60,489 nucleotides of DNA from a virus: the IMG/VR virus record IMGVR_UViG_3300020200_000001, positions 1 to 60,489 of that record; one strand, written 5' to 3'. A program made the position numbers and the translations under genes. Numbering within the stretch: the first letter of the stretch is position 1; every line of letters starts with the position of its first letter. The notes under the pieces were generated by a model. It did not search any database, had not been told where the DNA came from, and was given only the letters and a program-made list of their open reading frames with translations. Positions 1 through 15,636 of this stretch are shown one piece after another.

Positions 1-127
1 GAGCCGTTGTCCACCGGCCGTGTTTGTTGCAGTTGGGACGAAGTCGCTGATATCCTCTTGTGAGGAGAATCGCACATACATCGGATCCTGCGTGTTCGCA
101 GAACCAATCACGGTCTCTGTCCCAAAA
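1..127. repeat. Terminal direct repeat, copy 1 (circularisation overlap)
   Basis: These 127 bases are repeated exactly at the other end of the window. The length of 127 equals a k-mer size widely used by short-read assemblers, and a tail gene stays in frame when the ends are merged. The repeat is therefore best read as an assembly overlap of a circular or circularly permuted molecule, not as a biological terminal repeat. Confidence 0.93.
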
Positions 128-969
128 CAAACGAGATGTCGGTCAGGGGTGGAGACCAGTGCGTACTTGCTGGCAGTGGGTGCCCCTGCCACGGCCGATG
201 CGCGGGTGTTCGTGCCAAGGCTCGGTTCCCAAATGAAAGTCCCGCCATCCACCAACTGGCAGATGACGTTTTCACCGTAGCTGTCAAACTGCCACACGCG
301 GGAGAAGAGCGCACGGCCTTGCGTCCCGAGGTCAGGTCGGGGCGTACCCCAAGTGCTCTCGCCCCAGGTGCCTGTGCCCCAGCCGTAGTCAAAGTAATTG
401 ACATCAGAGCCCACGTTAATTTGAAACTCGGCAGTAGCAGACCCTTGCGCAACAACGGTAGAACTTGCACTTGTTGAACATTTAATTTCAAACGTACCGG
501 CGTTGATGATTGCTTGAATCTCAAACTCTCCCGTGAGGAATGCGTTTGCAATTCCACCAGGGTTGCCAGTTACGTTACTCAAGGTCACAAAATCTCCAAC
601 AATGGCGTTGTTGGCTGTGGCATTGACACGGACGGTCGTCGACCCGGATGTCGTGGTAAATGTGACGGGAGTTATAGTTGCTCGAATAGGTGTTACATCA
701 AACCACTGCGAGTTTGTGAAGACATACAGCTTGCGGTTTGTCCCGACAATTGCATAAGGAACGCCAGACAAATCATTCCATGTAAAGACCTCTGTGATTT
801 GCCCAACAAGGTAAGTTTCAGTTTCGTTGAACCAGGTCCATCCCCCGGTTTTTTCCGGCAGGCCATATTGAAACCGCACAAAGTCGCAATCAATCCAGCC
901 ACCTTCCGCGCCGTATTCGGTGTTCTGCTTGTCAATACCGGGTTTTAGAAAAAGGCGTTGTAAGGGCAT
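1..969 (-). CDS. Tail/neck structural protein, N-terminal part (continues across the circle join)
   Basis: This is the N-terminal 323 codons of a 619-residue protein whose remainder is at the right end of the window. It starts at an ATG (967-969) preceded by a GAGGAAG ribosome-binding site. The protein opens MPLQRLFLKPGID, followed by GGW.DCDFVRF and PEKTGGW, a signature I know from a widespread short-tailed phage virion family. That family is usually annotated as a tail or DNA-stabilisation protein. The body is beta-rich with no membrane segment. The lysozyme gene ends upstream of it on the same strand, and a 58-residue small gene follows it at the other end. The role as a tail tube or hub protein is family-level inference. 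Confidence 0.8.
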   Translation of the reverse strand, partial: MPLQRLFLKPGIDKQNTEYGAEGGWIDCDFVRFQYGLPEKTGGWTWFNETETYLVGQITEVFTWNDLSGVPYAIVGTNRKLYVFTNSQWFDVTPIRATITPVTFTTTSGSTTVRVNATANNAIVGDFVTLSNVTGNPGGIANAFLTGEFEIQAIINAGTFEIKCSTSASSTVVAQGSATAEFQINVGSDVNYFDYGWGTGTWGESTWGTPRPDLGTQGRALFSRVWQFDSYGENVICQLVDGGTFIWEPSLGTNTRASAVAGAPTASKYALVSTPDRHLVCFGTETVIGSANTQDPMYVRFSSQEDISDFVPTATNTAGGQRL

Positions 970-990
970 TTCTTCCTCACTGGAACATGG

Positions 991-1467
991 TCAGCTTAAG
1001 TACAGATTGCGTTCGTCTTTGCGACGCTTTACTAAGCCAGGCAATTCTTTTCCGGCTGCCTTGGTCCACATCATGAAGGCTTCGGCAGCTTCTTCGTAAT
1101 CCCCACGGTTATGCTTCATCCGGATGGAAGACCGCTGGAGGTTCCCCAAACCAACGTTAAAAGCGAAAGAGACGAGTGCACCAAACCGGCCAGGAGTAAG
1201 GCCGTTAGGACACAGTCGTAGTACGCCTGCCTCAAATCGCCCGAGATCCTCAGTAAGAATTCGGTCCACTTCGTCCACGGAGAGGGTGCGGTCCCAGCCG
1301 TCGGGAATTGGTAAATTTTTGCGTTCCTCAAGTTTCACTCCTATGTGTCTTGGGTCAATCACATGGCCTACGGCCGTCGTCCAAAGTAGCGCCGGACACC
1401 TGTAGGGCCTAAATCGCACCCCCTCGTGGTGCTTAATCATGTGGATGACCCGATCTTCTACTTTCAT
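991..1467 (-). CDS. Endolysin, glycoside hydrolase family 24 (T4-type lysozyme)
   Basis: A 158-residue muramidase that would cleave the MurNAc-GlcNAc bond of peptidoglycan at lysis. The GH24 catalytic signature Glu-8aa-Asp/Cys-5aa-Thr is present as E15, C24 and T30, in the Cys variant. Downstream, FGALVSFAFNVG is the conserved GH24 core helix. Length is typical for the family. There is no signal peptide or N-terminal anchor, so release should depend on a holin. The holin-like gene just upstream overlaps it by 4 bp (ATGA), forming a lysis pair. Family assignment is strong. Confidence 0.93.
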   Translation of the reverse strand: MKVEDRVIHMIKHHEGVRFRPYRCPALLWTTAVGHVIDPRHIGVKLEERKNLPIPDGWDRTLSVDEVDRILTEDLGRFEAGVLRLCPNGLTPGRFGALVSFAFNVGLGNLQRSSIRMKHNRGDYEEAAEAFMMWTKAAGKELPGLVKRRKDERNLYLS

Positions 1468-1946
1468 TTTTTAAACGACTGACTTCCAAACCAAAACGCG
1501 ATCACGGATGAAAATATGATGGCCGAGTCCTCATCCCACAGAATCTGCATGGCCTGGTCAAACGGCACCCCGGTCTTCCATGCGTAGAAGAATCCAAAGA
1601 TGTTGACGAACAGAAGCATGGCGAACATACCGTAGGTAATGACTGGCCGGACACTAGCCCGCATATTGATTACCCACTGAGATGCTCCCTTGCCAATCTC
1701 GATGTCGTGGGCATACAGGGCTTGCCGCTCTTGAACCGCTGTCTGCATTGCAACCTGGTCGGTTCGGATCTCTTCAACCCGAGCCTGGGCCGCGTAGCCG
1801 CGCTCAAGCATCTGCAGTTCGCGTTCGGTCTGCATTCTGGCTAAGGCCAGCTCATGGGTCTTATCTGATTTGTCCTGAAAAAAATCTAGGATCTTTGGCA
1901 GACCCCCCATTAAGAAAGAAATCAGGGTTGAAAGTAATGTAATCAT
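1464..1946 (-). CDS. Putative holin (membrane protein with central coiled coil)
   Basis: A 160-residue protein. I start it at the ATG at 1944-1946 because GAGGAAACC precedes it and an upstream extension would overlap the previous gene. The order is a hydrophobic N-terminus (residues 1-20), a charged region rich in Glu, Gln and Arg that is probably helical (25-95), then R.SVRPVITYG followed by hydrophobic stretches (about 108-128 and 142-155). This resembles the three-transmembrane holins of the gene-transfer-agent type. The 4-bp overlap with the lysozyme supports a lysis role. It is not proven to form lesions. Confidence 0.68.
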   Translation of the reverse strand: MITLLSTLISFLMGGLPKILDFFQDKSDKTHELALARMQTERELQMLERGYAAQARVEEIRTDQVAMQTAVQERQALYAHDIEIGKGASQWVINMRASVRPVITYGMFAMLLFVNIFGFFYAWKTGVPFDQAMQILWDEDSAIIFSSVIAFWFGSQSFKK

Positions 1947-1959
1947 GGTTTCCTCGTGT

Positions 1960-2925
1960 TTAGGGCCTGTATTGAATGAAGGTATAAGTCGGGTACGTTC
2001 CGCCGTACCCGTCGACCAAAATCCCAAACCCAAAGGTATACTCGTTGTTGGAGAAGAAGCCATTAGGGCCAGTCATGCTTACGTTCACCGAAACACTGCC
2101 ACCATTTCCGATGGAGAAGTTGGTGGGGCTGATAGTCGTAGAACCTCCAGTAGGCCTCTGGATCTCCTGCACGTACACGCTTCCTGTACCGGTTCCTGGT
2201 ATTTGAGCCACGGTAAAGCTGCTGTACGACGTTACCCCAGCGAATTGACGGGGGATCGTGGCAGAACCTGAACTCGGATTAACTGATACCTGCAAAACAC
2301 CCGGGGTCGTGATGGTGTTACTGAATCCGCTATACGAGCTGTTGCCGTAAGCGTTAGTCGCATAAACTCGGAAGTTGTAGCTTGTGCTCGACTGCAGTCC
2401 AGACACGTAAATGCTGCCGGATCCCGAGGTATTCACCGTGCCGGTGTAGCCGCCAGGGCTCGACACAGCGGTATAGCTCGTAATTGTTGAGCCTCCGTTG
2501 TATGCTGGAGCCGTGTAGGACACGTCCGCAGCCGAGGAACCACTCAAGGAAGCAAAACCGATGGTTGGCGCATCGGGGACCCCGAACGTGCGAATCTGGT
2601 TACTGGACGCACTTGGCGGGCTGTTGCCAAGCGCATTGGTCGCGTACACCGAGAACGTGTAGTACTGGCCAGACGTGAGGCCGCTAATGCTGATTGTGCC
2701 GCCGCCGGACTGGTAGACCGTAGCGGTCTGGCCGCCCGGGCTTGATACGCCCGTGTAGCTAGTGATCGGCGAGCCGCCGTCACTTAGCGGAGGGCCGAAC
2801 GTAACCGAAGCCGTCGTAGCGCCTGTTGCCGTTGCTGTGCCAATAATTGGCGCAGTAGCTAATCCAACGCCTGCGAGGCCATACCCCCGAGCGCCTGCGT
2901 TAGAAAAAGTACTGAGCAGCGGCAT
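1960..2925 (-). CDS. Fibronectin type III repeat protein, likely tail appendage
   Basis: A 321-residue protein with two tandem fibronectin type III-like domains (about 28-112 and 113-205). Each has the pattern P..PTIG followed by ..SYT..SSPGG and later GLTSG..Y.F.VYATNA.GNS. A C-terminal Ig-like beta domain follows (about 210-321). Such domains on phage virions commonly mediate reversible surface or carbohydrate contact. It is translationally coupled: its ATG overlaps the stop of the preceding tail-fibre-like gene (TAATG), and the holin follows. A role in adsorption is inferred from domain type and position. Confidence 0.72.
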   Translation of the reverse strand: MPLLSTFSNAGARGYGLAGVGLATAPIIGTATATGATTASVTFGPPLSDGGSPITSYTGVSSPGGQTATVYQSGGGTISISGLTSGQYYTFSVYATNALGNSPPSASSNQIRTFGVPDAPTIGFASLSGSSAADVSYTAPAYNGGSTITSYTAVSSPGGYTGTVNTSGSGSIYVSGLQSSTSYNFRVYATNAYGNSSYSGFSNTITTPGVLQVSVNPSSGSATIPRQFAGVTSYSSFTVAQIPGTGTGSVYVQEIQRPTGGSTTISPTNFSIGNGGSVSVNVSMTGPNGFFSNNEYTFGFGILVDGYGGTYPTYTFIQYRP

Positions 2926-3923
2926 TATGCAAACCTCGTCTGAGCCTCCAGCACCACAAAGGAGCCGGATCCTGTCTTAATGATTGTGGCAATGTAAGAG
3001 TCAATACTGCTTGCATTACCAGTCGTCGGAGCCGAGCCACCCTGCCATTTCGGCGTTATTGCGTTGCCGTCAATCGTGAACCCGGTCTGGCGATACCCAG
3101 TACCCCCGTTCGTGTTCAAAAAAGCGACGGTGACTGCTTCGCCCACATCCATGATGCTGTTGAGGGTGGTAGACCCATTGCCGCGCACATCTAGCGTCCA
3201 GTTCCCAGTGGCGCTGCCCTGGTAGTACAGAACGGATGCAGTAAGGACATCAAGGGTAACCAGGCTAGATGCTGCATTGACGGAGATCGCAATCTTCTCT
3301 TGGGTCGAGAGCAGCGTCTTGTTTGATAGGTCCTGGAACGCAGTAGTAAAGACGTTGCCGACCGCCTGGTACTCAACATCTGTCGCGCCACTGTTGACGA
3401 CAAGCGCCTTATTGGCATTGCCAGCATATGCGGGAAGAATGTTTGAGCGTGCTCCCGCGAAAGATGTCGCGCCAGTGCCGCCACTGGTAGCCTGCAGGGC
3501 CGTGGTCAGTGTCAAGCTAGACATGTGGTTGAGAGCCTCAACCACGTTGGTCGCATTGTTGTAGACGTACATTGAACGCCCAGCGGGGACAACAACCCCC
3601 GTTCCTGTAGCATTTCGCACCTCGACCTGATCGGCCAAGGCGTTATTGATCAGGTAGTTCTTCTGAATTGCAGGGACTGTTAGGGTGCGAGAGCCCCCTG
3701 AGCTACCGGTCAGCGTCAGACGTAAATTACGTGCAGCCTGGGTAGTATTCGTATTGGTGAGAGTGAGTACAACATCAGCGCCGGAGAAGAGGACGTCGAA
3801 ATTCCCGACAATCGCTTCTTCAAGAGCAACTCCTAAGTTGACGTTTGTGATCTCACCCCAGGTGCCTGAGTTTTCCCCTGTCTCCATCAACTGGATTTTT
3901 AGGGAACTATAACTTGATGGCAT
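2925..3923 (-). CDS. Tail fibre-like structural protein
   Basis: A 332-residue protein opening MPSSYSSLKIQLMETGEN with GTWGEITNVNLG. This start is shared by many aquatic-phage fibre proteins with an N-terminal virion-attachment region. The rest is Thr/Ala/Gly/Asn-rich beta structure with the phrase SGGTGATSFAGAR, typical of fibre shafts. No catalytic motif is visible. It lies between a repeat protein and the fibronectin-type protein in the receptor-binding cluster. Fibre identity is inferred from composition and position. Confidence 0.65.
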   Translation of the reverse strand: MPSSYSSLKIQLMETGENSGTWGEITNVNLGVALEEAIVGNFDVLFSGADVVLTLTNTNTTQAARNLRLTLTGSSGGSRTLTVPAIQKNYLINNALADQVEVRNATGTGVVVPAGRSMYVYNNATNVVEALNHMSSLTLTTALQATSGGTGATSFAGARSNILPAYAGNANKALVVNSGATDVEYQAVGNVFTTAFQDLSNKTLLSTQEKIAISVNAASSLVTLDVLTASVLYYQGSATGNWTLDVRGNGSTTLNSIMDVGEAVTVAFLNTNGGTGYRQTGFTIDGNAITPKWQGGSAPTTGNASSIDSYIATIIKTGSGSFVVLEAQTRFA

Positions 3924-3941
3924 GTTCTGCTCCTTTGGCTC

Positions 3942-4895
3942 TTAGTGGATCACTTCATTCCAATTGTCGTCCTGTGTGTCGTCCACCACTGTCCAAGTGG
4001 TAGCGGGTTTGACGGGCGCGGTCCACGTTGTCGATTGAGCCGCGTTGACCTGGACCCACACCTCAGATTGAGCGTCGTCAACGACATACCAATCAGGCGT
4101 TTGTGGGTCAGGAATTACTCCCCATACTAACACACTAGTTACATTTATGATAGCTTGTTGCGACGCCAAAATGACGGTTGCTTTACCCGCAGCGTTGAGT
4201 GTTCCAACGCTCGCTACCATCGGGAGTTCCGCGACCAGGGTAGTTGCGTTTGCCTTGGTCGAGACACTATTGAGGTACGAAACAATCTCCTGCGCCGTCA
4301 CCGTGGTGTTGGCGTCTCCAGTCACCAGAAGACTCTGAATCGCTCCGAGAATCTGCTGGGAGGTCACATAGACTTTCGTCTGCGTGTAAATCTCAACGGC
4401 AGCCTGAAGCGCCTGGATTTCTTCTCCGGTAATGGTGGTCGTGGCCTTGGCCTGGATAGCCACAGAATTGACCAGCGCCTCAAACTCGGAACCGGTCAGG
4501 ACCACGTTAGCTTTAGCGTCTACCTCCAGGCTGCCCGTGATAGCACTTAGCACCTGAGAGAAGACGTAAACCGCAATGCCTGTCTTAAGGGTCCCCTGCT
4601 CGGCGGTCAAGAACTGCGAGTCAAGCTGGACGAAGCCTTTACCTGCAATGGCCACATTGGCCAGGTAGGCCTGCATATCCGTGCCGGTAAGGTAGTAGGC
4701 CGAGTCCGTGGTGAAGGTGCCAGTGAAGGCCTCCAACTGGTCCTGGGCAATAAGAATGACGTTGCCAATGCCGATCACCGACGGGGTGGTCAGCCCCATG
4801 GTCATCTGAATGCCGTTAATTTCTGCCAGCGCAGGAATACCCGTCTTCGGTATCGAAGCAAACGGGACCCTAGCAAATGGCGCAAAACCAAACAT
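3942..4895 (-). CDS. Virion protein with degenerate internal repeats
   Basis: A 317-residue protein opening MFGFAPFARVPFASIP, a start I have seen on phage structural proteins. Residues about 30-245 contain repeated blocks of roughly 40-50 residues, each built around a T/S-G-x-x-(Q/L)xx-A(Y/F)-(V/L/T) phrase and a beta strand. The C-terminus (about 250-317) is Trp-rich with W..VDD.Q...W.., suggesting a small binding domain. No enzyme motif is seen. It sits directly downstream of the bilin reductase gene (3-bp gap) and upstream of the fibre-like gene, so it probably belongs to the tail. Confidence 0.55.
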   Translation of the reverse strand: MFGFAPFARVPFASIPKTGIPALAEINGIQMTMGLTTPSVIGIGNVILIAQDQLEAFTGTFTTDSAYYLTGTDMQAYLANVAIAGKGFVQLDSQFLTAEQGTLKTGIAVYVFSQVLSAITGSLEVDAKANVVLTGSEFEALVNSVAIQAKATTTITGEEIQALQAAVEIYTQTKVYVTSQQILGAIQSLLVTGDANTTVTAQEIVSYLNSVSTKANATTLVAELPMVASVGTLNAAGKATVILASQQAIINVTSVLVWGVIPDPQTPDWYVVDDAQSEVWVQVNAAQSTTWTAPVKPATTWTVVDDTQDDNWNEVIH

Positions 4896-4898
4896 TAT

Positions 4899-5597
4899 TT
4901 AGGCCTCGCCATCGCTGCCAACATCTCTAGCATGTGCAACTCCTGTGCCGACTTCCGGGAAAAGGCACGTGTGAATGAACGTCTCCACCTCCGCAGGGTC
5001 AAGGCCAAGCGCCGCCATGACCCGAGGCGTGTGCGGGTTCTTTTTCTGATTTTGGCAGTACCAGTCCTGTCGTTGTGTGTATTCCCCAATTCGCTCACGG
5101 CCTACCTCCTTTAGGTAGTAATCCAGGTTCTCTGTCACTAATTTTAAAACTGTGGCAAGCTCTTGGGAATCCTGAATATTACCTGCAGCTACCATTGAGC
5201 GACTAAATATGTTTCTGGCCCATTCGGGCAGCTCGCGCTCTTTGCTCCAGGTATACCCTGATACACGATCACGGAACCAGCCCAGCATTGCGTGAGTTGG
5301 ATCGGTCGGGCTAAAGTCGTGAAAAGCTCCGGTGACCTTGCGCGGCCCTGCAATGATGTCAAACCCGAAGATCGGGGACGGGTCATCCAAATGTGGCATG
5401 ACCGTCAGGTGCAGCATGTACAGGCCCTTGGTGTCGCGCGCATCTACAATGTCCAGATGAGCGCGGCGAAATGAGCTGCTGCGGAATACGTAATTAGGCC
5501 AGGAAAAACGGTGGCCCTCGTCATAGGCCTCGTACTGGCGTAGACGCGATAAGAGGTTGTCGTGGGCCTCTTCAAGCTGCTCGAAAATCGTGGGCAT
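4899..5597 (-). CDS. pcyX: Ferredoxin-dependent bilin reductase (PcyA/PebS/PcyX family)
   Basis: A 232-residue reductase expected to reduce biliverdin with electrons from ferredoxin. From residue 43 it aligns without difficulty with cyanobacterial PcyA: FRRAHLDI, LHLTVMPH, PIFGFDIIAGP and DFSPT, then RELPEW, and later YCQNQKKN.HT.RV. D49 matches PcyA Glu76, H63 matches His88 and D80 matches Asp105. P188 replaces Asp220, an Asp implicated in A-ring reduction. The 17-residue His-Asp spacing and short length fit phage-type PebS/PcyX. GGAGAG precedes the ATG. The family is very likely. The exact product and the symbol are inference. No ferredoxin gene is seen, so a host donor would be needed. Confidence 0.88.
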   Translation of the reverse strand: MPTIFEQLEEAHDNLLSRLRQYEAYDEGHRFSWPNYVFRSSSFRRAHLDIVDARDTKGLYMLHLTVMPHLDDPSPIFGFDIIAGPRKVTGAFHDFSPTDPTHAMLGWFRDRVSGYTWSKERELPEWARNIFSRSMVAAGNIQDSQELATVLKLVTENLDYYLKEVGRERIGEYTQRQDWYCQNQKKNPHTPRVMAALGLDPAEVETFIHTCLFPEVGTGVAHARDVGSDGEA

Positions 5598-5623
5598 TGG
5601 GGCTCTCCATACAAGAATCCCGC

Positions 5624-6169
5624 CTACTTAAAAGGAGGGCCCACAGTCCAGCATACCGCCGAATATCGGACGCCCGAGGTCACAGGAGTCACACGATGAA
5701 GTACGGTGGATGGAAAAACGATGATAGACCCCCGAGACTTAGGAGGTTTTTTTTCGAGTTCCTTGAACTCCAGATCGCCCCCTTCGTACTCCGAGGCGTC
5801 GTTGAGGAGAATTGAGCAGCTCACCTTGCGTTGAAGATTGTTCTCATCTGGCGTTTGAACGTCAGGATGCCAGTTATAGTGACCACCTGCTTCGTACTTT
5901 GCCATTTGAACACGCTGCGGAAAACTGATGTCAAGATTCCACCCAGCTAGCCTATTTGCCATGTGTGAAAAGTGAAAAGCAACTGCAGCGATGGGAGAAG
6001 TGAACTCTTCCCACAACACTTTTGTTACCCTTAATTCTTCATTAAGTAGACCATCCCCTTCGCGAATTCGACCATCAATGGCCTTTTCCCAGTCCAGTCG
6101 ACTCAGTGCGTAATCACAGAAAGACTGGTCAAGAACCCCGTCCCAAGCCCAATAGACGTCTTTGAACAC
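5624..6169 (-). CDS. 2-oxoglutarate/Fe(II)-dependent oxygenase (prolyl-4-hydroxylase-like)
   Basis: A 181-residue double-stranded beta-helix oxygenase. The iron facial triad is visible as H101-x-D103 (in GGHYNWHPD) and H158 (in VLHRVTPV). R168 (in GVRYS) is the expected 2-oxoglutarate anchor. EYEGGDLEF is the usual inter-motif segment of the PKHD/P4H-like group. The start is a GTG at 6167-6169, eight bases after AGGAG and just past the heme oxygenase stop. It is placed exactly between the heme oxygenase and the bilin reductase in one operon. Substrate is unknown: candidates are a virion or host protein, a nucleotide, or a small molecule. Confidence 0.87.
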   Translation of the reverse strand: MFKDVYWAWDGVLDQSFCDYALSRLDWEKAIDGRIREGDGLLNEELRVTKVLWEEFTSPIAAVAFHFSHMANRLAGWNLDISFPQRVQMAKYEAGGHYNWHPDVQTPDENNLQRKVSCSILLNDASEYEGGDLEFKELEKKPPKSRGSIIVFPSTVLHRVTPVTSGVRYSAVCWTVGPPFK

Positions 6170-6170
6170 T

Positions 6171-6707
6171 TCATTCTCCTGTATTCAGCGAATAAGCTGC
6201 CGATATTTCATCAAACAGCCGAAGTGCGTAGTCTAAAACAAGGTTAGCCTCAGAGGCAAGGTCATCCGACAATTTTGCCCGCACTTTTTCAATCAACCCG
6301 GCTCGATCTTCAAACTCATACATGCGACCAGATCCAGGAACCACTTTTTTAAGGATTTGGCCCCCATACATGTCAGCAAAATGGCGCGCATAGATGTGCG
6401 CCCATAGCCGTGTTTCGGGGACTGTATAGACGTAAAAAATGTAGTCCCTGGTGGACTGATGAACTTGGGCATTTCTTTCTAGTTCATCAGCATCCTGTTC
6501 AATTAAGTCAGCACGACGAATAGCCTCAATGCCCTCAAGCATTTTCAATTCATCTGCCCGTTTCTCCAGAGCAAGATAGCACATTGCCTGGTTAAACAGG
6601 TATTCGGCGTAAGCTTTCGGAGGGATCTTCCCGGAAAGTAACAAGACCACAAAAGGATGTTTTTCGGCCTTATCGTGCCGAGCTTTTATGTGGTCTCGTA
6701 AAGCCAT
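6171..6707 (-). CDS. Heme oxygenase (biliverdin-forming)
   Basis: A 178-residue all-helical protein expected to cleave heme to biliverdin, CO and iron. H11 in the context RHDKAEKHPF matches the proximal heme ligand (human HO-1 His25). LWAHIYARHFADMYGGQILK (101-120) matches the distal helix (LVAHAYTRYLGDLSGGQ in HO-1), with D112, G115 and G116 conserved but Gly139 replaced by Ala and Ser142 by Tyr. It is slightly shorter than cyanobacterial HO1. Its ATG overlaps the upstream stop (TAATG), and the 2OG oxygenase follows within a base. It would supply biliverdin to the reductase two genes downstream. Confidence 0.92.
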   Translation of the reverse strand: MALRDHIKARHDKAEKHPFVVLLLSGKIPPKAYAEYLFNQAMCYLALEKRADELKMLEGIEAIRRADLIEQDADELERNAQVHQSTRDYIFYVYTVPETRLWAHIYARHFADMYGGQILKKVVPGSGRMYEFEDRAGLIEKVRAKLSDDLASEANLVLDYALRLFDEISAAYSLNTGE

Positions 6708-7351
6708 TACATGGGGTCTTTCATGTCAATGTTAAAGCTAACCATGATTCTATTCTCATTAGACTGATTTGCTTCCGTCATGTGGGGAAGCCAGGCTGGA
6801 AAGATGACCATTTGTCCTGATTCAACCACATGTGTGTATATCGTAGGCACAGTTGGGAAGTCGTTGTAGTGGCGGATGTACATGGTTTTAGCCACCGCTG
6901 ACGGGTCTTTAAAAATAAGATTTCCACCATTTTCAGGCACATGAGCATAAAAAACCCCACTCAACATCGAATTGGAGTGCACATGTTCTGGCACGTATGT
7001 ACCGGGTGGATAAAGCGTAATCCAACTATTCATAAACGTCATGACACTGTCCCCAGTGTTGACGCTAGAAATCATGGTTTGTGCAAAAACTTTTAGAAAA
7101 GTCGAGACTTCCTGCCATTCCGGCTTATCCAGAATTGCCTCCGTAGAAAAGGATGTCACGCCATAGCGTTGAAAATCCTCTTTTAAAGCAGAAACTTTCC
7201 CATAATTCCATCCTTCGGAGACAAGTTTTGCACTAGGGACGGTGTCCCTAAAGTGCAGAACTAAATCGCAGATTTTTTGTCGTATCTGGAGATTGTCGCT
7301 ATGACCTACCAATAACGGCGTCTGAAAAATATTTTTTACAAAATGGCTCAT
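6707..7351 (-). CDS. Putative 2OG-Fe(II) oxygenase (TIGR02466-like)
   Basis: A 214-residue protein with the layout of the phage and bacterial 2OG oxygenase group: HVHSNS (H123/H125) as the first metal site, then SMLSGVFYAHVPENGGNLIF, and FPAWLPHMTEAN (H190) with R201 as the second half of the site. It is a different subfamily from the other oxygenase in this cassette. I start it at the ATG at 7349-7351, which overlaps the upstream chaperone stop (ATGA). It leads the four-gene auxiliary cassette and is coupled to heme oxygenase. Its substrate cannot be read from sequence. Confidence 0.84.
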   Translation of the reverse strand: MSHFVKNIFQTPLLVGHSDNLQIRQKICDLVLHFRDTVPSAKLVSEGWNYGKVSALKEDFQRYGVTSFSTEAILDKPEWQEVSTFLKVFAQTMISSVNTGDSVMTFMNSWITLYPPGTYVPEHVHSNSMLSGVFYAHVPENGGNLIFKDPSAVAKTMYIRHYNDFPTVPTIYTHVVESGQMVIFPAWLPHMTEANQSNENRIMVSFNIDMKDPM

Positions 7352-7797
7352 TCCTTGGCTGGCTCGTCGGGCCACTCCACATCATCCGCTTTAGCTACAT
7401 TCGGATAGGACGTCGGTAGATCCCTCAAAGCCTGTCGATAGGCTGCCCATTCTGCTTTTTTAGGCTCTGACAACGGGCTATCTGCCGCCTGAGTCCAGTC
7501 GCATGCTGCAAGCAAATGGCTTCGACGAGAACGGATAAATTTATCAACCAGTTCATCTTGGGTAAATTCACGAACGCTGGCTCGATTACGCACGATGCCG
7601 CCATCGTCCATGTAGTAGTCCGGAGAGTGGATAGTGACGCCGTTTTCTGCCTCGGGGGCACGCTGAAACCGGGCGTAGCCATGCTTTTTGAGGGTCGCAT
7701 CATCCAGCGCAGACACCTCCAACACCTGCTTCAGGTTATCCCCGGTCAAGGGGTGGTCTACAGGATTCCCGCTGCTGTCAAGTTTGATGTATAGCAT
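7348..7797 (-). CDS. Tail fibre assembly chaperone-like protein
   Basis: A 149-residue protein with a C-terminal segment RSRRSHLLAACDWTQAADSP followed by KKAEWAAYRQALRDLP. This is the hallmark of the phage tail assembly chaperone family (PF16778-like). The N-terminal half is a small mixed domain. It lies immediately downstream of the giant tail fibre gene, as expected for a fibre-folding helper, and overlaps the start of the first oxygenase by 4 bp. The auxiliary genes were apparently inserted after this chaperone. Confidence 0.8.
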   Translation of the reverse strand: MLYIKLDSSGNPVDHPLTGDNLKQVLEVSALDDATLKKHGYARFQRAPEAENGVTIHSPDYYMDDGGIVRNRASVREFTQDELVDKFIRSRRSHLLAACDWTQAADSPLSEPKKAEWAAYRQALRDLPTSYPNVAKADDVEWPDEPAKE

Positions 7798-7809
7798 TTC
7801 TTCTCCTTA

Positions 7810-10800
7810 TCAGGCCGGTCCAGATGGTGTGACATCGGCCACATTGGTATTCGGGTAAGCACGCCCACTGCCCCACATGATGCGAACCGCACCACTTCCG
7901 CCGTTACCCGAGGCGCTAGGCCATGAAGTTCCGGGGCCCCCGCCGCCTCCGCCGTAATCCCCGCCTTGGATGTTGCTGGAAGACTGGCCGCTACCACTGA
8001 ACGGATTTTCTCCATACATACCGTTTGACCCGCCATGCGCTCCGGATCCCCCATTGCCCCAACCCGCATTATTGTTGTAGCTAGTAAAGGGGTTGTAGAA
8101 CGCGTTGCCAGGAGAAGGCCACCCCGTCGGGCCATACAAGTTTACGCCTCCGCCAGCACCAGTGCCGTAAGTGGAGCTGTAGTAACTGCCGCCATATGCG
8201 CCCTGGACAGTCCCGTTCCAGCTTTCCTGGCCGTTACCACCTCGTCCAATATAGCCCCCAGCACCGCCACCACCTTGGTAGTTAGGGGCGTTACCCCCGG
8301 CACCACCCCCGGTGCCGACGTAGCCCCCGCCGTAGCTATTCGCATTTGGGCCGCTCGTGGAAATACCGGATGCGTTTCCGCCACCATACCCTGATACAGT
8401 GCCCAGGCTGATGAAATAGGAGTTGCCGCCCAACAGCGTAGGACTTGCGCTAGAGGTTGTGGACTGGCCGCCTGCGCCGACCACAACGGTGTATGTCTGG
8501 CCAGGCACCACAGTGATATTGTTCTTCCAGCCCAGGCCACCACCACTACCGGCTGGGTTAGCCCAGTTGTCCTGGCCTGCACCGCCGCCGCCTATGCACA
8601 CGACCGAGACCGAAGTTACGGCGGCCGGGGCTGTCCAGCTATATGTTCCTGCGCTGGTGTACTGGTTCTGGCCCTGAATCGTGCCGAGATAAGGAGTCCA
8701 AGTAAATACCCGGCTATTGGAGTAAACGCCGTTAGTAGCAGTTACCGTAAAGTTGAATGTTGAGAGGTATCCAATCGGACCTGCAGGGGCGGTTCCGGAG
8801 AGCACCCCCGCTGAAGACAGCGTCAGCCAAGCCGGAATCGCGCCTGCACTGACGGTGTGGACCACAACCCCAGACAACGCAGTCGCTTGTGTGGCAGTGG
8901 AAGTAAAGGCTGCGGACGGTGTAACTGTATCAGGCAGTACGCCTGCACCAAAGATTGGATAAGCCCCGTTAACAACTAGCGTCAATGCCTCGGTAATGTT
9001 CCCGGTGTTACTCGACCCATCAGCTCGAATGTTAAAACCGGAATAAGAACCTGCAGCAGTGCTAGAGCCGACCGTGAGGACCCCGGTTGAACTGTTGATT
9101 GAAACACCAGAAGGAATGCTTCCAGTCAACGACCAAGATGCCGGTGGCAACAACGTGTTGGAGAAAATGGCATAGTTATAGGTGATGGCTGTGCCTGTCT
9201 GAGCAAAAATGCTGTCGGGCCCAACAATGTCGTTGAGAGCCAATGCTTGAAAGGCCAGGGTAGAACCTGCACTGGTCAAAACTTTACCGGTCTCACCGAC
9301 TGAGGTCGGAATCGCCTGCGGTACGCGTGTATCAACATACGTCTTGACTGCGGCCTCTGTGGGCACAGCGACGTTGGTTGGATTCGCTCCGCCAAGCGTC
9401 ACGTCAGACGAAAACTCATTGATAGTTTCGCCAAGCTGTGCGCCAATCGAACCAAGTCGCAGAGAAGTCAAACCGGCTAGGTTGAACGCATTGGCATTTA
9501 GCGTTGCAGTACCTGTTGCCTGATCAACCCGGAAATATTCGCCCACACGGAAATTACCGTCTTGGTCGGTCGACACGTAGTAGACGCGGCCGGGCAGGTC
9601 CTCGTTAACCTCGTTGCCTTGTGCAGGAGGCTGTGTCGGAGTGTTGGGGTAGTTCGTGGTTGCAATGCCGCCAGTACCAATGCTCAAAAAGTCATGGCCG
9701 GTAAGTCGGATCTGCGAGTAGTTATTCCGCAACGTGACCACTGCTCCTGGAGCAGACGGCGTCAACTTCTCCTGGGCAAGCGCCAACGACATCACACTAG
9801 ACGAGTCGACATAGGTTCCACTGACAGACTGGATGACATACGCCGCAGAGTCCCCCGTAACCTGAAGACTTGCTCCGGGCTGTGGCGCATCATTAAATCC
9901 ATTTGCAACCAGTAAATAGCCCATCTGGTTCGACACGCCACTACCGGTTAAGGTAAGAGTGTACGTACCATCCGTGATGTCCTCGCCGTTTTGGAAGTCA
10001 GCAACAGACGTTTGGTTGTAATAGATCTTCGCAGCAGACGCTTGAAGGTTTGTTACCGTACCAGTGGCCCCAGAAGTTACGCCGGTGACTGTGGTACCTG
10101 CAGCAAACCCTTGGGTAATCGGATCTGTAGTAACTGTAAGCTGCTTACCGTAAAGTGCTCCAACATGGGGAATTTCTGAGGCCAAGAATCCAAAAGAAGC
10201 CGATCCCCAAGTACCATAAGAGTTATTACCGTTGAGTGCCCGGATAACACCGCCACCTGAAGTGGCATAGCCGAAGTAGGCGTAGTAAGTAAAGCAGGAA
10301 ACAATTTCCCCGCGACCACCGTCTTTTACCCAAAAGCCAATGCCGTTATCAGCGATGATGGTGTAGCCGTGAAACAGCATCGACTTGTAGCCGCTTGCCT
10401 GTGTCGACCCGTCAACAAACGCACCAATCAACCCCGAACCAATTGCCGAGCACTCTAAGATGTAAGGGGATTTTGTGGTGACTGTAGAAGCCGGGTTGAG
10501 CGCGGCCACAACGCCTTTTGGCGTGGAAGTTCGGATATCTCCAGGAGTACCGCCAGGCACCCAGCCAGTCATACCTGTAAACGTCATCTTGTTCAGGATG
10601 GACGCGTTGGACATCAGGAACATCGTTGCCTGGTTGTTTGGCGTAATGCCATCGGCTGCCAGGCCTGCGGCGGGCTGCACGATCACAGTACGTTGGTTGT
10701 CGCCAACGATCGCCACCGTGGGCGGAATCACGATGGGCAGAGCGGCCTCTAGGTACGTACCGGTCTTGACGAAAATCGTCGCAGGCTGACCGGCAGGAAC

Positions 10801-12099
10801 GGCAGCCACCGCCGCCTGAATGCTCGCAAACGGCAGCGCCAGGGTTGTGCCCGGGTAGGTGTCATCACCGTCCGGCGACACGTAGAAGATGTTCGTCGAA
10901 CCGCTGGCGTTTAGCCACGCAATGCCTGCGCCAGTCGGATCGACCGACAGCGAGTAGCCTTCCTGGCCGGGAGCGATGACGGGGAGAACGTCGTCGCCGC
11001 CCTGTGCAAAGAACACCCACTTGCCTGCATCAAACTCAACGCTGAAGTTGGTGCCGGAGGTGAAGTCCTCAGTCGCGATGTAGGACGAACCGACCTGACG
11101 AACGATGTCGTTGACCAGGTACGGGGTGTTCTGTGCCCACACGCCGCGCCAGCGGATGCCTCCGTTGAAGATCTCCCACTTGCCTGCGGCCAAGTCTGTA
11201 GCAAAGGTGCCAGAAGTGTTGGTCTGCAAGCAGGAATAGGTGTTCCCGCCGTAGACGACAATGTCGTAAGGCAGGTACAGAGTAGCAGTCGTCCACTCCC
11301 CGCGCTGGCGCAGGCCAGAAACGAAGATCGACCACTTGCCTGCGGCCAAGTCGGTTGAGAACACGCCGGAGGTGTTCTGGATCTGGCAGGCGTATGTGTT
11401 GGCACCGTACTGGACCAGGTCATTGACGTAGTACAGCGTGCCAGTCTGCCAGGCCCCACGGTTCTCAAATGCGGAGATCCAGGGAGTCCAGTAGTTGGTA
11501 TCGGTCGGAGGATTGCCGGTCGTGTTGGCGGTACAGATGTACAGATTCGCGCCGTATGCGACCACGTCGTTCGGGGCATACGCCGTCGCGTTGTTGTACA
11601 CGCCCTCAGGAGCAATACCGGTGACGAAAGGGTCCCAATAGACAGTGTTTGTCGGGTCGTTGCCTACAGTCGTCTGCTTGGCGATATAGGCATTGCCGCC
11701 GTACTTGACGACGTCGTTGGCCTGGTACGAGGTGACGGGGTTGTAATTGCCTTCCCACTGGATCGCCTCAACAAACTGCGACCAGAAAGCAGGGAATAAA
11801 TCAGGCCGCTTGTTGATGTTGTCCTGCAGCGCCACGTACACCGTCGAGCCGTATGCGACGGCGTCGCCGATGTAATACTGGGTGGCATTCGTCCACTCGC
11901 CAACGAAGTTGATGCCCTCAACCATCAGCGCCCAGTACGCCGTGTCGGTCGGCTCATTGCCGATCGTCTTGACGACGTTGATGTAGACGTAGACGTTACC
12001 GCCGTAGCGGACAACGTCGTTCAGTTCATACTCAGTGAGCGGGTTGTAGTTGCCAGCCCAGTAGAACCGTAATTTTCCAAGATCGACGACTGTAGTCAT
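7810..12099 (-). CDS. Giant modular tail fibre / receptor-binding protein
   Basis: A 1,429-residue protein, the largest here. Residues about 10-370 hold seven carbohydrate-binding-like modules of roughly 50 residues, each with Y..ND(V/I)V.YG.N.Y and an aromatic W....Y at its start. From about 400, FYVSPDGDDTYPGTTLALPF opens a probable right-handed beta-helix (to about 640). A segment with YYVSTDQDGNFRVGEYF (about 860) and DTR resembles fibre shaft/attachment units. Two Ig-like putative domains (about 985-1160) follow. The C-terminal 230 residues are extremely Gly-rich, opening VSVVCIGGGGAG, like glycine-rich phage adhesin tips. Its stop overlaps nothing; the chaperone follows after 12 bp. Confidence 0.85.
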   Translation of the reverse strand: MTTVVDLGKLRFYWAGNYNPLTEYELNDVVRYGGNVYVYINVVKTIGNEPTDTAYWALMVEGINFVGEWTNATQYYIGDAVAYGSTVYVALQDNINKRPDLFPAFWSQFVEAIQWEGNYNPVTSYQANDVVKYGGNAYIAKQTTVGNDPTNTVYWDPFVTGIAPEGVYNNATAYAPNDVVAYGANLYICTANTTGNPPTDTNYWTPWISAFENRGAWQTGTLYYVNDLVQYGANTYACQIQNTSGVFSTDLAAGKWSIFVSGLRQRGEWTTATLYLPYDIVVYGGNTYSCLQTNTSGTFATDLAAGKWEIFNGGIRWRGVWAQNTPYLVNDIVRQVGSSYIATEDFTSGTNFSVEFDAGKWVFFAQGGDDVLPVIAPGQEGYSLSVDPTGAGIAWLNASGSTNIFYVSPDGDDTYPGTTLALPFASIQAAVAAVPAGQPATIFVKTGTYLEAALPIVIPPTVAIVGDNQRTVIVQPAAGLAADGITPNNQATMFLMSNASILNKMTFTGMTGWVPGGTPGDIRTSTPKGVVAALNPASTVTTKSPYILECSAIGSGLIGAFVDGSTQASGYKSMLFHGYTIIADNGIGFWVKDGGRGEIVSCFTYYAYFGYATSGGGVIRALNGNNSYGTWGSASFGFLASEIPHVGALYGKQLTVTTDPITQGFAAGTTVTGVTSGATGTVTNLQASAAKIYYNQTSVADFQNGEDITDGTYTLTLTGSGVSNQMGYLLVANGFNDAPQPGASLQVTGDSAAYVIQSVSGTYVDSSSVMSLALAQEKLTPSAPGAVVTLRNNYSQIRLTGHDFLSIGTGGIATTNYPNTPTQPPAQGNEVNEDLPGRVYYVSTDQDGNFRVGEYFRVDQATGTATLNANAFNLAGLTSLRLGSIGAQLGETINEFSSDVTLGGANPTNVAVPTEAAVKTYVDTRVPQAIPTSVGETGKVLTSAGSTLAFQALALNDIVGPDSIFAQTGTAITYNYAIFSNTLLPPASWSLTGSIPSGVSINSSTGVLTVGSSTAAGSYSGFNIRADGSSNTGNITEALTLVVNGAYPIFGAGVLPDTVTPSAAFTSTATQATALSGVVVHTVSAGAIPAWLTLSSAGVLSGTAPAGPIGYLSTFNFTVTATNGVYSNSRVFTWTPYLGTIQGQNQYTSAGTYSWTAPAAVTSVSVVCIGGGGAGQDNWANPAGSGGGLGWKNNITVVPGQTYTVVVGAGGQSTTSSASPTLLGGNSYFISLGTVSGYGGGNASGISTSGPNANSYGGGYVGTGGGAGGNAPNYQGGGGAGGYIGRGGNGQESWNGTVQGAYGGSYYSSTYGTGAGGGVNLYGPTGWPSPGNAFYNPFTSYNNNAGWGNGGSGAHGGSNGMYGENPFSGSGQSSSNIQGGDYGGGGGGPGTSWPSASGNGGSGAVRIMWGSGRAYPNTNVADVTPSGPA

Positions 12100-12329
12100 A
12101 TGAACACCATCTCCAGGTGACCCTTATCGCCCCACCGGAACTGATAAGTGTCGGTTGACCAAATCCAGTTTACGTATTCATTTGGGCCAATGATGTAGCC
12201 CGGCTGCGGCAAGTGGACCGTCGAACCATCGTTGATGATGTCTACGTTCAAATCTCCTGTTGCCTGGATCAGCTTGAACCCGTAAAAGGTCTTATTTGCT
12301 AAATCCGTCCCTGTGTGAAAACCAGCCAT
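12096..12329 (-). CDS. Small virion-associated protein, function unknown
   Basis: A 77-residue mixed alpha/beta protein with VDIINDGSTVHLP and EYVNWIWSTDTYQFRW. No known domain is recognised. It overlaps the giant fibre start by 4 bp and the preceding gene stop by 1 bp, so it is translated as part of the tail operon. It may be a fibre attachment or cap protein, by position only. Confidence 0.6.
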   Translation of the reverse strand: MAGFHTGTDLANKTFYGFKLIQATGDLNVDIINDGSTVHLPQPGYIIGPNEYVNWIWSTDTYQFRWGDKGHLEMVFI

Positions 12330-12643
12330 TAGACGCTCTCCAATACAGAAACAAGGATGTCAAACCCATTGTTGACTGCCGTAGAGGCCATGAGCTGGTC
12401 ACCAGCTTCAAGAACAATCTTGTTGCCTCGCATCAACTCTTCCGTGCGACCTGGGCCGACTCGGAATTGTTGAAGAATCCTAGTGTCATTGGAACTCCTT
12501 CTGTGCCAAACGTCAATCGGGAGTTCCGAGCCATAAATATTCGCCGCACTTAGTCCAATAACCACGGTTCCGCTGGCGGCCGTGTGGATAGTGGTGGCAG
12601 ACATGCCTAGATTGCGGGTTGCGGTACTTTTAAAAGATGCCAT
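12329..12643 (-). CDS. Small structural protein, function unknown
   Basis: A 104-residue beta-rich protein (TAASGTVVIGLSAANIYGSE, then a polar linker and LVSVLESV). It resembles the small proteins that aquatic phages carry between tail adaptors and fibres. No catalytic motif is visible. It is in tight operon spacing with its neighbours and probably part of the tail tip. Confidence 0.58.
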   Translation of the reverse strand: MASFKSTATRNLGMSATTIHTAASGTVVIGLSAANIYGSELPIDVWHRRSSNDTRILQQFRVGPGRTEELMRGNKIVLEAGDQLMASTAVNNGFDILVSVLESV

Positions 12644-12646
12644 GGC

Positions 12647-13024
12647 TTACCCCAATGCAATCGCAAAAACAATTGCAGACCCAGCCGGGTCATAGACCAG
12701 CGAGCCGTCTGCATTGTTGTAGACCGCCCGTTCAGCAGGAAGGGTACAAAACACCTCTTTCGTGCCTGCCCCAAAGTTGACGATCAAGTTGTTATTTGAG
12801 CTTGTTAGAATCAGATCGCGAGAGATCGCCCCGGAACTGTAGGTCCCTACGCCAACCTCCCATTGACCGAGCTGATCGTTGGTGATGGTGTAGTAAGTGA
12901 CGTTGCCCTCGCCGATCGCAGCCGCAAAAGTCGTATACCCTGTATACGCTCCCGTGACTGTAAAGTTCCCCGTACCAGCAGAAGCACTGGTTTCGCGGAC
13001 TCGATCTGAGAGGACTAAGGGCAT
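12647..13024 (-). CDS. Conserved phage structural protein
   Basis: A 125-residue protein opening MPLVLSDRVRETSASAGTG and containing WEVGVGTYSSGAISRD and AGTKEVFCTLPAE. This pattern occurs in many phage genomes near tail genes. It is likely a beta-sandwich virion protein. It is separated from its neighbours by 2-3 bp. The exact position in the particle is unknown. Confidence 0.68.
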   Translation of the reverse strand: MPLVLSDRVRETSASAGTGNFTVTGAYTGYTTFAAAIGEGNVTYYTITNDQLGQWEVGVGTYSSGAISRDLILTSSNNNLIVNFGAGTKEVFCTLPAERAVYNNADGSLVYDPAGSAIVFAIALG

Positions 13025-13026
13025 TT

Positions 13027-13458
13027 TTACACCAATCGAATAACAGCGGTGGCAGGACCAGGAGGCGGGAAGATGACAGTAAAGTCACCGTCAGTGGCCG
13101 TCTTGTCCGACCCGAAATCGAACACCGCAACGCCCTTGTTGCCTTCCGTGCTGTTGTAGATCATGCAGCCACGGGCCGTCAAAGTGACGTTCGGGAAGGT
13201 CAGGTCGTTGAAATCCAAAAATGCAGTAGTGCCAGAAAGCGCCACACCCAAACTAGTCAACTGACCGCCGCCTGCCGGGTAGTTCGTACCTACCGAGGAC
13301 ACCTCATCGGAGGTCGTGTACACAGTGGTGGACGCGTCAATCGTCGCGGCCGAGGTGTACAGCGCCAGAAAAAAGGTGTCCCCAGGGACATCAAAATCAT
13401 GCACGCCTTCAAAAAGCTGCTGTTTGAAACTAGAGCAAATTGCTTGTGTAATTGCCAT
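13027..13458 (-). CDS. Conserved phage structural protein
   Basis: A 143-residue protein opening MAITQAICSSFKQQLFEG with the phrase GDTFFLALYTSAATID. Later come AVLDFNDL-like and ARGCMIYNS segments and a C-terminal FPPPGPATAVIR. I recognise it as a common virion protein family of aquatic phages that precedes the fibre genes, but I know no established function. It is beta-rich with no membrane segment. Confidence 0.68.
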   Translation of the reverse strand: MAITQAICSSFKQQLFEGVHDFDVPGDTFFLALYTSAATIDASTTVYTTSDEVSSVGTNYPAGGGQLTSLGVALSGTTAFLDFNDLTFPNVTLTARGCMIYNSTEGNKGVAVFDFGSDKTATDGDFTVIFPPPGPATAVIRLV

Positions 13459-13459
13459 T

Positions 13460-13744
13460 TTAATTCTCCAAGAGTTTCACCAGATCGGCGTGTCCAAATG
13501 ATTTTAACTTAGCTGACAAAGTTGTTCTATCAGAAACGATAGCTTGTCGCATGTAGTGGATCAAAAGGACGCGAATCTGTTCTTTGAATGCCTGAGCCTG
13601 GTCACGGATCACAGGGTGGACGTTCTCGCCGACGTACATAATCTTTTCAAGCGCCTCATCGGCAAGCTCCTCCGGCGTCCGGCCACGGTTATTTGTGGTT
13701 CGGACAGAGACACTGTTAAGTGCGGTCGAGAATTGGATATCCAT
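13460..13744 (-). CDS. Small conserved phage protein
   Basis: A 94-residue protein: a short beta N-terminus containing VRTTNNRGRTPEELADEALE, then a long amphipathic helix ending AKLKSFGHADLVKLLEN. Similar proteins lie next to head-tail adaptors in many podoviruses. It directly abuts the adaptor gene upstream (stop at 13745). Function is unknown and it is possibly virion-associated. Confidence 0.6.
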   Translation of the reverse strand: MDIQFSTALNSVSVRTTNNRGRTPEELADEALEKIMYVGENVHPVIRDQAQAFKEQIRVLLIHYMRQAIVSDRTTLSAKLKSFGHADLVKLLEN

Positions 13745-14407
13745 TTAAGGCCCCGGACTAGGTGATTTAATCGGCAGACGGGCCATGCCGTCCCTGTATT
13801 CGTCGCGACGACGACGACCCTGTTGCTCGATGCCCAGACCTTGAATCGCCTGCTTGTAGCTGTTCTCAAAATAAGCCAGCATGTCTGTCGGCCCTTTGGT
13901 GTAGCTGTAGGCCTGGATCAGGCAAGCGTACAAAAGAGCTTCAGGGGCATAGGTGCTAATCCAGGTGTTTTGGACAGCCTGTGAAATCTGTGGAGGCCTA
14001 CGGATATACCCTAACTCGACCACATAGTTGGCATTTGGAGTAGGCGCAATGTAGAAACTGTCCTGGTCCCAGATCGAGTAGTACTTGGGGATCCCAACAT
14101 CATTCCCGTCTGGCCAGTACTCCTTCATGAAGGATGTATCGCGGAAATCCAAAAAGATCTGATCATTAGTCACCGGCACCGTAATCATCATGTACCGATG
14201 CGTAAGCATGTCCGAAGGCGCAGTCAGAAACTTGTTGTTGTTGGTCATCGTTCCAGAGACCTCCAACTTGAACACATCTAGGTCAATGTCGCGGAGAATG
14301 CGATTCTCCGCCATCGTAATGAACGTGTTGATCACCGAGTCAGAGAACACATTGGACCCGACTTCGGTGTAGTTACGGATGTTGGTGACAAGTTCGTTGT
14401 AGGTCAT
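13745..14407 (-). CDS. Head-tail adaptor protein (SU10-adaptor-like)
   Basis: A 220-residue protein opening MTYNELVTNIRNYTEVGSN with FITMAENRILRDIDLDVFKL, then a beta region and the helix APEALLYACLIQAYSYTKGP. This layout matches the helical adaptor that binds below the portal in short-tailed phages (SU10 adaptor family). The C-terminus is basic (QQGRRRRDEYRDG). Its ATG overlaps the upstream gene by 4 bp. Assignment rests on the N-terminal signature and on position after portal and capsid. Confidence 0.75.
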   Translation of the reverse strand: MTYNELVTNIRNYTEVGSNVFSDSVINTFITMAENRILRDIDLDVFKLEVSGTMTNNNKFLTAPSDMLTHRYMMITVPVTNDQIFLDFRDTSFMKEYWPDGNDVGIPKYYSIWDQDSFYIAPTPNANYVVELGYIRRPPQISQAVQNTWISTYAPEALLYACLIQAYSYTKGPTDMLAYFENSYKQAIQGLGIEQQGRRRRDEYRDGMARLPIKSPSPGP

Positions 14408-14775: not shown

Positions 14776-14776
14776 G

Positions 14777-15442: not shown

Positions 15443-15636
15443 TAGTCACACATCCCGCCTGCACGCATTTTCTTGACGCCCTTCATGGCCATCATCTTGT
15501 GCGCATTGACTGCCCCGCCCTTTCTCATCATCACGGGACCTGTCTTTTTGCTGGTCTTAGAGACCATACGATTTTTTGGGCCGCTCATTACGCAGCCGCC
15601 GCCTTTGGTGGCGCAACCCATGCCTTTTCCAGCCAT
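15442..15636 (-). CDS. Small basic Cys/Met/Gly-rich protein
   Basis: A 64-residue protein rich in Lys, Met, Gly and Cys (MAGKGMGCATKGGGCVMSGP), with a C-terminal GVKKMRAGGMCD. Very basic small proteins of this type are common in the capsid-to-neck region of aquatic podoviruses. It could bind DNA or coat the particle. No fold is predictable by eye. It overlaps the neck gene start by one base (TAATG). Confidence 0.6.
   Translation of the reverse strand: MAGKGMGCATKGGGCVMSGPKNRMVSKTSKKTGPVMMRKGGAVNAHKMMAMKGVKKMRAGGMCD

Follow-up and report, generated by a model that had tools for sequence, protein, structure and literature searches.

A heme oxygenase and PcyX-type bilin reductase gene pair of phages in the recurrent company of putative 2-oxoglutarate-dependent oxygenases

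We analysed a window of 60,489 nucleotides, the whole of IMG/VR virus record IMGVR_UViG_3300020200_000001, in which four minus-strand genes set predicted enzymes of heme breakdown and bilin formation among two iron-dependent oxygenases. An earlier sequence-only reading had described these genes as a bilin synthesis cassette in the order oxygenase, heme oxygenase, oxygenase, bilin reductase, and had proposed profile searches of each protein; these searches matched the heme oxygenase, bilin reductase and oxygenase families above the Pfam cut-offs for all four genes, at the same place and in the same order. In the direction of transcription, OG5 (6707..7351) is predicted to have an Fe(II)/2-oxoglutarate (2OG) oxygenase fold (PF13759, 75.3 bits, cut-off 27; TIGR02466, 81.4 bits, cut-off 62.5), HO (6171..6707) is a heme oxygenase of 178 amino acids (PF01126, 46.9 bits, cut-off 23, profile positions 7-141 of 204), OG3 (5624..6169, GTG start) is a 2OG-Fe(II) oxygenase of the prolyl-hydroxylase/PKHD kind (PF13640, 65.3 bits, cut-off 27), and FDBR (4899..5597) is a PcyX-type ferredoxin-dependent bilin reductase (PF05996, 68 bits, cut-off 31). 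The block lies within a run of tail genes that reads APC-OG5-HO-OG3-FDBR-d3942.

The assignment of FDBR to the PcyX kind draws on its closest solved chain, its clade and an Asp/His/Asp triad, which together point to a PcyX-type enzyme. Among solved structures PcyX (5owg) is the best match (E 2.4e-53) with PcyA far behind (6.2e-16), and a score of 90.6 on the PcyA equivalog model, under its cut-off of 206, is in line with this assignment. Our tree of bilin reductases comprises 97 rows and places the window protein and 5owg among 92 phage-type rows (support 83/94), apart from a group of four PcyAs (support 100/95), with a program warning of long branches that concerns the PebS outgroup most of all. 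In the alignment, Asp49, His63 and Asp80 are the same residues as in 5owg, and these positions are kept in 81, 92 and 92 of the 92 phage-type rows, respectively. Asp49 stands at the position of Glu76 of cyanobacterial and cyanophage PcyA, which is occupied by Glu in 2d1e and in three PcyAs of cyanophages, and from the alignment and the chain offset against 5owg it probably corresponds to PcyX Asp55; this residue is not diagnostic alone, as the PebS of P-RSM6 carries Asp there too.

The similarity of HO to solved heme oxygenases is weak but clear (best E 1.1e-6), and each of the 25 solved matches listed bears the name heme oxygenase. Residues H10, D111, G114, G115 and Q116 (numbered without the start methionine) are invariant in 27 phage sequences and include the heme-ligand proximal His, the distal-helix Asp and the Gly-Gly pair. 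The position that we take to be that of human Gly139 is Ala in the window and in three of the other retrieved loci, L001, L004 and L062. HO and FDBR are co-directional and, with OG3 between them, not strictly adjacent; other loci, for example L028, L035, L042 and L046, likewise have a gene between the two. Family profiles, tree and residues thus agree with the earlier description of a heme oxygenase and a bilin reductase set among two iron-dependent oxygenases, the reductase being of the PcyX type. A phage-borne electron donor was rejected: no Fer2 (plant-type ferredoxin) domain occurs in the window, so that the electrons for the reductase must be host-derived, and among 19 records (the window and 18 related ones) Fer2 appears in one, in a 1002-aa frame. 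A 5-aminolevulinic acid (5-ALA) synthase is likewise absent from the window record and scores above cut-off in one of the 19 records only, that of L028 (G020), where it lies at 5986-7158, tens of kb from HO-FDBR, resembling the “broken cassette” of PMC11480375. We noticed no photosynthesis genes among the window open reading frames that we read, though no search was aimed at them.

OG3 has the HxD...H...R motif of its family (H100, D102, H157 and R167, numbered without the start methionine), and its sequence matches include the PKHD hydroxylases Sbal_3634 and PiuC. Its structural model (pLDDT 92.5) has a prolyl-hydroxylase fold that aligns with PHD2 (3hqr; Z 18.0, 172 residues, root-mean-square deviation (rmsd) 2.7) and PiuC (9qn4; Z 16.4, 162 residues, rmsd 3.3). 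PiuC, PHD2 and P4H share fold and Fe/2OG motif with OG3 at about 20% identity in structural alignments. The AlphaFold model of OG5 (pLDDT 90.1) best matches 3bvc (Z 19.3, 190 residues, rmsd 3.4); ranked after it are prolyl hydroxylases from viruses and bacteria (5c5t at Z 15.4 over 152 residues, rmsd 2.7; 4j25 at Z 15.3 over 162 residues, rmsd 3.4) and the epimerase SnoN (5ep9; Z 15.2, 165 residues, rmsd 3.0). OG5 instead reads HxH...H...R (H122, H124, H189 and R200, numbered likewise; invariant in 22 sequences), and 2rg4 and 3bvc also have HIH at this position. These two TIGR02466 proteins are closest to OG5 by sequence as well as fold and are titled uncharacterised, offering no transferable function. 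OG5 would therefore have a 2OG-oxygenase fold in which the absence of the HxD carboxylate of canonical 2OG dioxygenases leaves 2OG use putative, and the fold that both modelled proteins share with prolyl hydroxylases says nothing certain of their substrates. OG3 also matches PHROGs labelled ferrochelatase (phrog_3531), DNA endonuclease (phrog_2297) and DNA endonuclease V (phrog_274), and two genes that bear the ferrochelatase and DNA endonuclease V labels stand inside the 2OG run of the pelagiphage Mosig (L059, 5249-6528); a Pfam search of the latter two proteins gave no match, and such labels on OG3-like and Mosig genes may be wrong.

Directly upstream of the four genes lies APC (7348..7797, minus strand), which encodes a tail assembly chaperone or tail fibre assembly protein (PF16778, 64.9 bits, cut-off 26.6; phrog_4912, tail fiber assembly). 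Our scripts called genes as mechanical open reading frames, but the ATGA overlap of APC and OG5, read from the sequence, agrees better with the OG5 start at 7351 given by the sequence-only reading than with the mechanically called GTG at 7375. OG5 and HO overlap by TAATG, a single nucleotide separates HO from the GTG of OG3, and the spacers between OG3 and FDBR and between FDBR and d3942 measure 26 and 3 nt. Over 3500-12400 on both strands, we found no excess of promoter-like (2 sites versus 5.1 expected) or terminator-like sequences (8 versus 9.1 expected). The repetitive protein encoded by d3942 (3942..4895, minus strand) has no Pfam or NCBIfam match above cut-off and one weak PHROG match of unknown function. 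It comes after FDBR also in L001, L061-L063, L065, L115 and L116, and its relatives precede the same next gene, d2925, in other phages.

Relatives of both FDBR and HO are abundant in viral contigs, with at least 581 and at least 556 matched stretches, respectively. The exact window order is shared by five contigs from three lineages (the window, L061/L062 and L115/L116), so that the synteny search suggested by the sequence-only reading rules out a chimera confined to one contig. Two FDBR scans gave 124 loci in 64 clusters at 90%, each represented by its best-covered member, the others being dropped ahead of counting; HO lies at most two genes upstream of FDBR in all 63 clusters with any gene upstream. 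From the HO side, in loci that partly stem from the same contigs and are not independent, FDBR adjoins HO in 58 of 59 lineages and a 2OG gene is adjacent in 13 of 56. A pooled HO tally (FDBR in 107 of 108 clusters, a 2OG in 25 of 108) combines loci from every anchor and was set aside. We then tallied, over all fetched loci and with many contigs counted more than once, the unbroken series of named genes that end with FDBR. HO-FDBR without another named gene directly before numbered 120, APC-OG5-OG3-HO-FDBR 25, APC-HO-FDBR 23, FDBR preceded directly by another gene or a contig end 23, APC-OG5-HO-FDBR 13, APC-OG5-HO-OG3-FDBR 10 (the five contigs), OG3-HO-FDBR 10 and APC-OG3-OG5-HO-FDBR 8, besides three each of APC-HO-OG3-FDBR and APC-OG3-HO-FDBR and three singletons. 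By this tally, the unit is HO-FDBR, with 2OGs that vary in presence and order, and the idea of a fixed four-gene cassette has to be given up. L061 and L062 were retrieved through d3942 and missed by an FDBR scan; a single-protein scan with OG3 returned nothing and one with OG5 a single distant locus, which reflects a limit of exact-pattern searching, not absence.

Some loci differ in their surroundings. A carbon-nitrogen hydrolase gene (PF00795) lies directly before FDBR in two contigs of metagenome-assembled genomes (MAGs; L108, 4802-5854, and L109, 4994-5854), and in L142 genes of PfkB-type kinase and HAD-like families on the opposite strand flank HO-FDBR (4568-5467 and 6647-7321), with L143, L147, L148, L152, L167 and L168 similar in layout. 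A bacterial origin was considered for three bacterial MAG contigs with a phage-type FDBR and rejected, since FDBR occurs in one of 289 genomes of the class to which G049 belongs, namely in G049 itself; we infer that these contigs are phage DNA in bins.

The company of 2OG genes exceeds chance by several measures. In the FDBR-scan loci, 13 of the 59 lineages with three upstream genes have a 2OG at most three genes upstream of FDBR, and 2OGs fill 19 of 120 near slots versus 6 of 605 elsewhere; in 10,000 within-locus shuffles, the number of near 2OGs never reached 19 (maximum 12). Across 69 clusters from several scans together with Mosig, the MAGs and the window, positions -1 to -6 of FDBR hold 3, 13, 9, 1, 3 and 0 2OGs and positions +1 to +6 hold 0, 0, 0, 0, 1 and 1. 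On the FDBR tree, after removal for this purpose of five rows that had too few genes upstream, the state of having a 2OG neighbour changes at least 14 times; 18 of 86 rows are positive, which is not a frequency because rows obtained through OG5 enrich positives. In L115/L116, the OG3 that separates HO from FDBR can be aligned with that of the window over only 61 aa, at 34% identity, so unlike 2OGs occupy the same HO/FDBR position. The predicted gene families thus show a non-random company of 2OGs with HO-FDBR in several phage lineages.

A rival account holds that a cargo site among tail or neck genes gathers oxygenases that use iron and O2, with HO-FDBR and the 2OGs as separate cargo that share no pathway. 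The fluid gene order around HO and the occurrence of distant OG5-OG3 tandems without HO would fit such hitchhiking; it is harder to reconcile with 2OGs that keep to the HO side of FDBR, none being found in 257 slots at +1 to +4. OG5-anchored loci form 28 clusters including that of the window, found with eight seeds that all lie beside HO and hence with bias. In each of the 13 clusters whose OG5 is at least 44% identical to that of the window (again including the window's own), HO is next or next but one to OG5, which also speaks against hitchhiking; the same holds for 3 of the remaining 15. Nor does the tail site as such attract 2OGs: among APC-anchored lineages, a 2OG is present in 2 of 60 without HO/FDBR versus 7 of 14 with them (Fisher p 5.7e-5), which sets APC alone aside as the attractant. 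This control used 79 of 80 loci (L061 left out) in 72 clusters, 61 of them with at least two downstream genes and 1 of these 61 with HO/FDBR. Its eight APC seeds all precede HO-FDBR and are thus biased, many of its matches cover the C-terminal domain only, and one of the two 2OG-positive loci, L341, ends at the contig end, where HO may lie beyond.

Several observations weigh against a functional tie of the oxygenases to HO-FDBR. No 2OG lies within three genes upstream of FDBR in 46 of the 59 FDBR-scan lineages, 12 of the 15 more distant OG5 clusters have no HO among the three listed genes, and OG5 itself has HxH in place of the HxD of a canonical 2OG dioxygenase. L001, L063 and L065 carry HO-FDBR-d3942 without 2OGs, and L001 is a near relative (FDBR 77% identical) whose 12.8-kb record matches neither PF13640 nor PF13759. 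The Pelagibacter phage HTVC008M carries four genes annotated as 2OG/PhyH and one as “ferrochelatase” just upstream of the neck gene on the other strand, at the very site where Mosig has 2OGs and HO-FDBR; neither HO nor FDBR is annotated there, and we found no FDBR match and, at a sensitivity that also misses cyanophage HOs, no HO match. The suggested tie of the 2OGs to HO and FDBR is accordingly not strict. (In this record, L401, the 2OG/PhyH cluster stands with a tryptophan halogenase gene amid neck and terminase genes at 3668-12423.) The neck-gene comparison covers two records, and in the second, Melnitz, neither 2OGs nor HO-FDBR are annotated at that site. The phage DSL-LC04, close to the window in head genes, carries a single tail-region 2OG and gives neither an FDBR nor an HO match. 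Finally, 2OG genes are common in cyanophages, reported in 14 of 16 genomes of T4-like ones (PMC3037559) and in 76 of 153 cyanophages (PMC10452541). HTVC008M, DSL-LC04, the cyanophage 2OGs and the 2OG-free loci therefore leave an oxygenase hotspot as a serious rival, above all in T4-like phages, although overall we regard it as somewhat unlikely.

The cassette genes appear to be under purifying selection, because the proportion of nonsynonymous differences (pN) is far below that of synonymous ones (pS): the four proteins of the window and L062 are 63-78% identical with pS of 0.75-0.93 and pN of 0.165-0.239, and pN is likewise far below pS between L115 and L116. Parts of the block seem to have been exchanged between phages. 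The window OG5 is 71% identical to that of L176, 69% to that of L171 and 65% to that of L062, and its FDBR 78% to that of L062 versus 51% to that of L171; GC content at third codon positions is 0.46, 0.44 and 0.49 for OG5, HO and OG3 of the window versus 0.56-0.64 for APC, FDBR and d3942, and reaches 0.64-0.71 for the same three genes of L062. By terminase and portal, the nearest named relatives of the window phage are DSL-LC04 (terminase 81%, portal 75% identical), 023Pt_psg01 and the Pelagibacter phages HTVC027P and HTVC023P, with cyanophages more distant at 45% terminase identity, in keeping with its earlier description as non-cyanophage-like. DSL-LC04 is itself a metagenome-assembled genome with a host that is only predicted (PMC10611076). 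An exact 127-base direct repeat at the record ends (1-127 and 60363-60489) is consistent with a complete circular assembly. Between 29500 and 34000, GC content in 500-base steps is 0.60-0.75 versus about 0.51-0.57 over most of the record; this stretch encodes DUF932 and DUF7227 proteins and is possibly a recent import or an assembly join.

We give roughly even chances to the reading that bilin formation and the use of Fe(II) and O2 by 2OG enzymes belong together, as a heme-breakdown cassette of the hemO-pcyX kind with two recruited Fe(II)-dependent oxygenases, and rank it above the gathering of separate cargo. Late expression is presumed because the cassette is packed among tail genes. As families and residues suggest, HO would then open host heme and yield biliverdin, Fe(II) and CO, and the PcyX-type FDBR would use electrons of host ferredoxin to reduce biliverdin to a phycoerythrobilin (PEB)-type bilin and thereby remove the HO product. 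OG5 and OG3 would draw on Fe(II) and O2 from the same phase and, with their prolyl-hydroxylase-like folds, would most likely hydroxylate a protein of the phage tail or the host. The least certain part is whether the 2OGs are tied to HO through iron, through bilin or by a shared site only. The iron-supply link proposed from the sequence alone is not supported as stated and stays a hypothesis: pure iron supply fits poorly because FDBR adjoins HO in those 58 of 59 lineages, a pairing that iron release alone does not explain or require and that counts against this part of the favoured reading. No need for an FDBR is known for bacterial iron-acquiring HOs. We also rejected an iron-loaded tail fibre (the “Ferrojan horse” idea), since HxH occurs only in OG5 among the open reading frames of 1-16000 in cassette direction and not in the 1429-aa fibre. 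That phages have repeatedly built a coupled module of heme iron and oxygenases, in which HO-FDBR yields Fe(II) and a bilin late in infection and dedicated protein hydroxylases, an HO-bound OG5 and interchangeable OG3s, are metallated by, or act on, its products, we hold to be unlikely.

Alternatively, OG5, OG3 or both could hydroxylate, desaturate or epimerise biliverdin or the PEB-type bilin into a new modified bilin. The 13 of 13 OG5 clusters beside HO and the fold match to SnoN, a small-molecule epimerase, would suit such tailoring, but the recruitment of unlike 2OGs is awkward for one specific reaction, the characterised top fold matches apart from SnoN are protein prolyl hydroxylases, and 2OGs are missing from that place in 46 of 59 HO-FDBR lineages; we consider it quite unlikely. 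Supply of the bilin as chromophore to a host phytochrome or bilin-binding globin, which is compatible with any reading of the 2OGs, would have a precedent in the freshwater phage CB_2, whose PcyA and a phage HO load phytochrome on co-expression (PMC11480375). It seems very unlikely here: none of the 19 records contains a phytochrome PHY domain, and the PcyX Asp of the window FDBR leads one to expect PEB, whereas CB_2 makes phycocyanobilin (PCB).

The co-occurrence of HO and bilin reductase in phages has been called enigmatic (PMC11480375), and why phages of phycobilisome-free bacteria carry the two is a standing puzzle. Our loci place HO-FDBR in phages beyond the T4-like pelagiphages, and OG5, whose close relatives we found only beside HO, makes the puzzle biochemically testable, as the enzyme may depend on the iron of HO, on the bilin or on neither. 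If the coupled module were true, heme breakdown would be part of the modification of virion or host proteins.

A marine phage hemO-pcyX cassette was reportedly described by Ledermann in 2016. Cassettes of HO, pcyA or pcyX and valaS have been described in phages, with the pelagiphage Mosig named among them (PMC11480375). The window resembles the marine hemO-pcyX cassette in that a phage HO and an FDBR of PcyX type, with the PcyX Asp, are adjacent or almost adjacent; it differs in having OG3 within the pair and OG5 ahead of HO, and in lying in the tail run of a 60-kb phage, whereas the marine contigs group with T4-like pelagimyophages (PMC11480375). The hemO/pcyA/valaS cassette of CB_2 likewise combines HO and FDBR outside cyanophages, but its FDBR lacks the PcyX-specific Asp55, to which its PCB product is ascribed, and it has valaS (PMC11480375), unlike the window record. 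Closest in composition is Mosig (EXVC030M, MT647606), which by annotation has 2OG genes directly upstream of HO-FDBR, in the different order 2OG-2OG-2OG-HO-FDBR before a neck gene and with a fourth 2OG nearby; its FDBR and HO are 44% and 32% identical to those of the window. The earlier statement that no report pairs HO-FDBR with 2OGs holds insofar as we found no paper describing their recurrent company in the open literature searched, of which Ledermann 2016 was no part and some articles were available as excerpts, but not for database records, since the Mosig annotation shows three 2OGs upstream of the pair. The term 2OG is absent from the main text of PMC11480375, a term search of the Mosig genome note (PMC7892664) gave no mention of heme, bilin or 2OG, and PMC10452541, alone among the searched articles in combining heme oxygenase, phage and 2OG-Fe, lists the first and the last as separate cyanophage genes in the excerpts consulted; roles proposed for the cyanophage 2OG enzymes are conversion of 2OG to succinate or DNA repair (PMC3037559). 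The HO-FDBR pair itself is already known from phages (PMC11480375), and the less-known part is its recurrent link to 2OG oxygenases.

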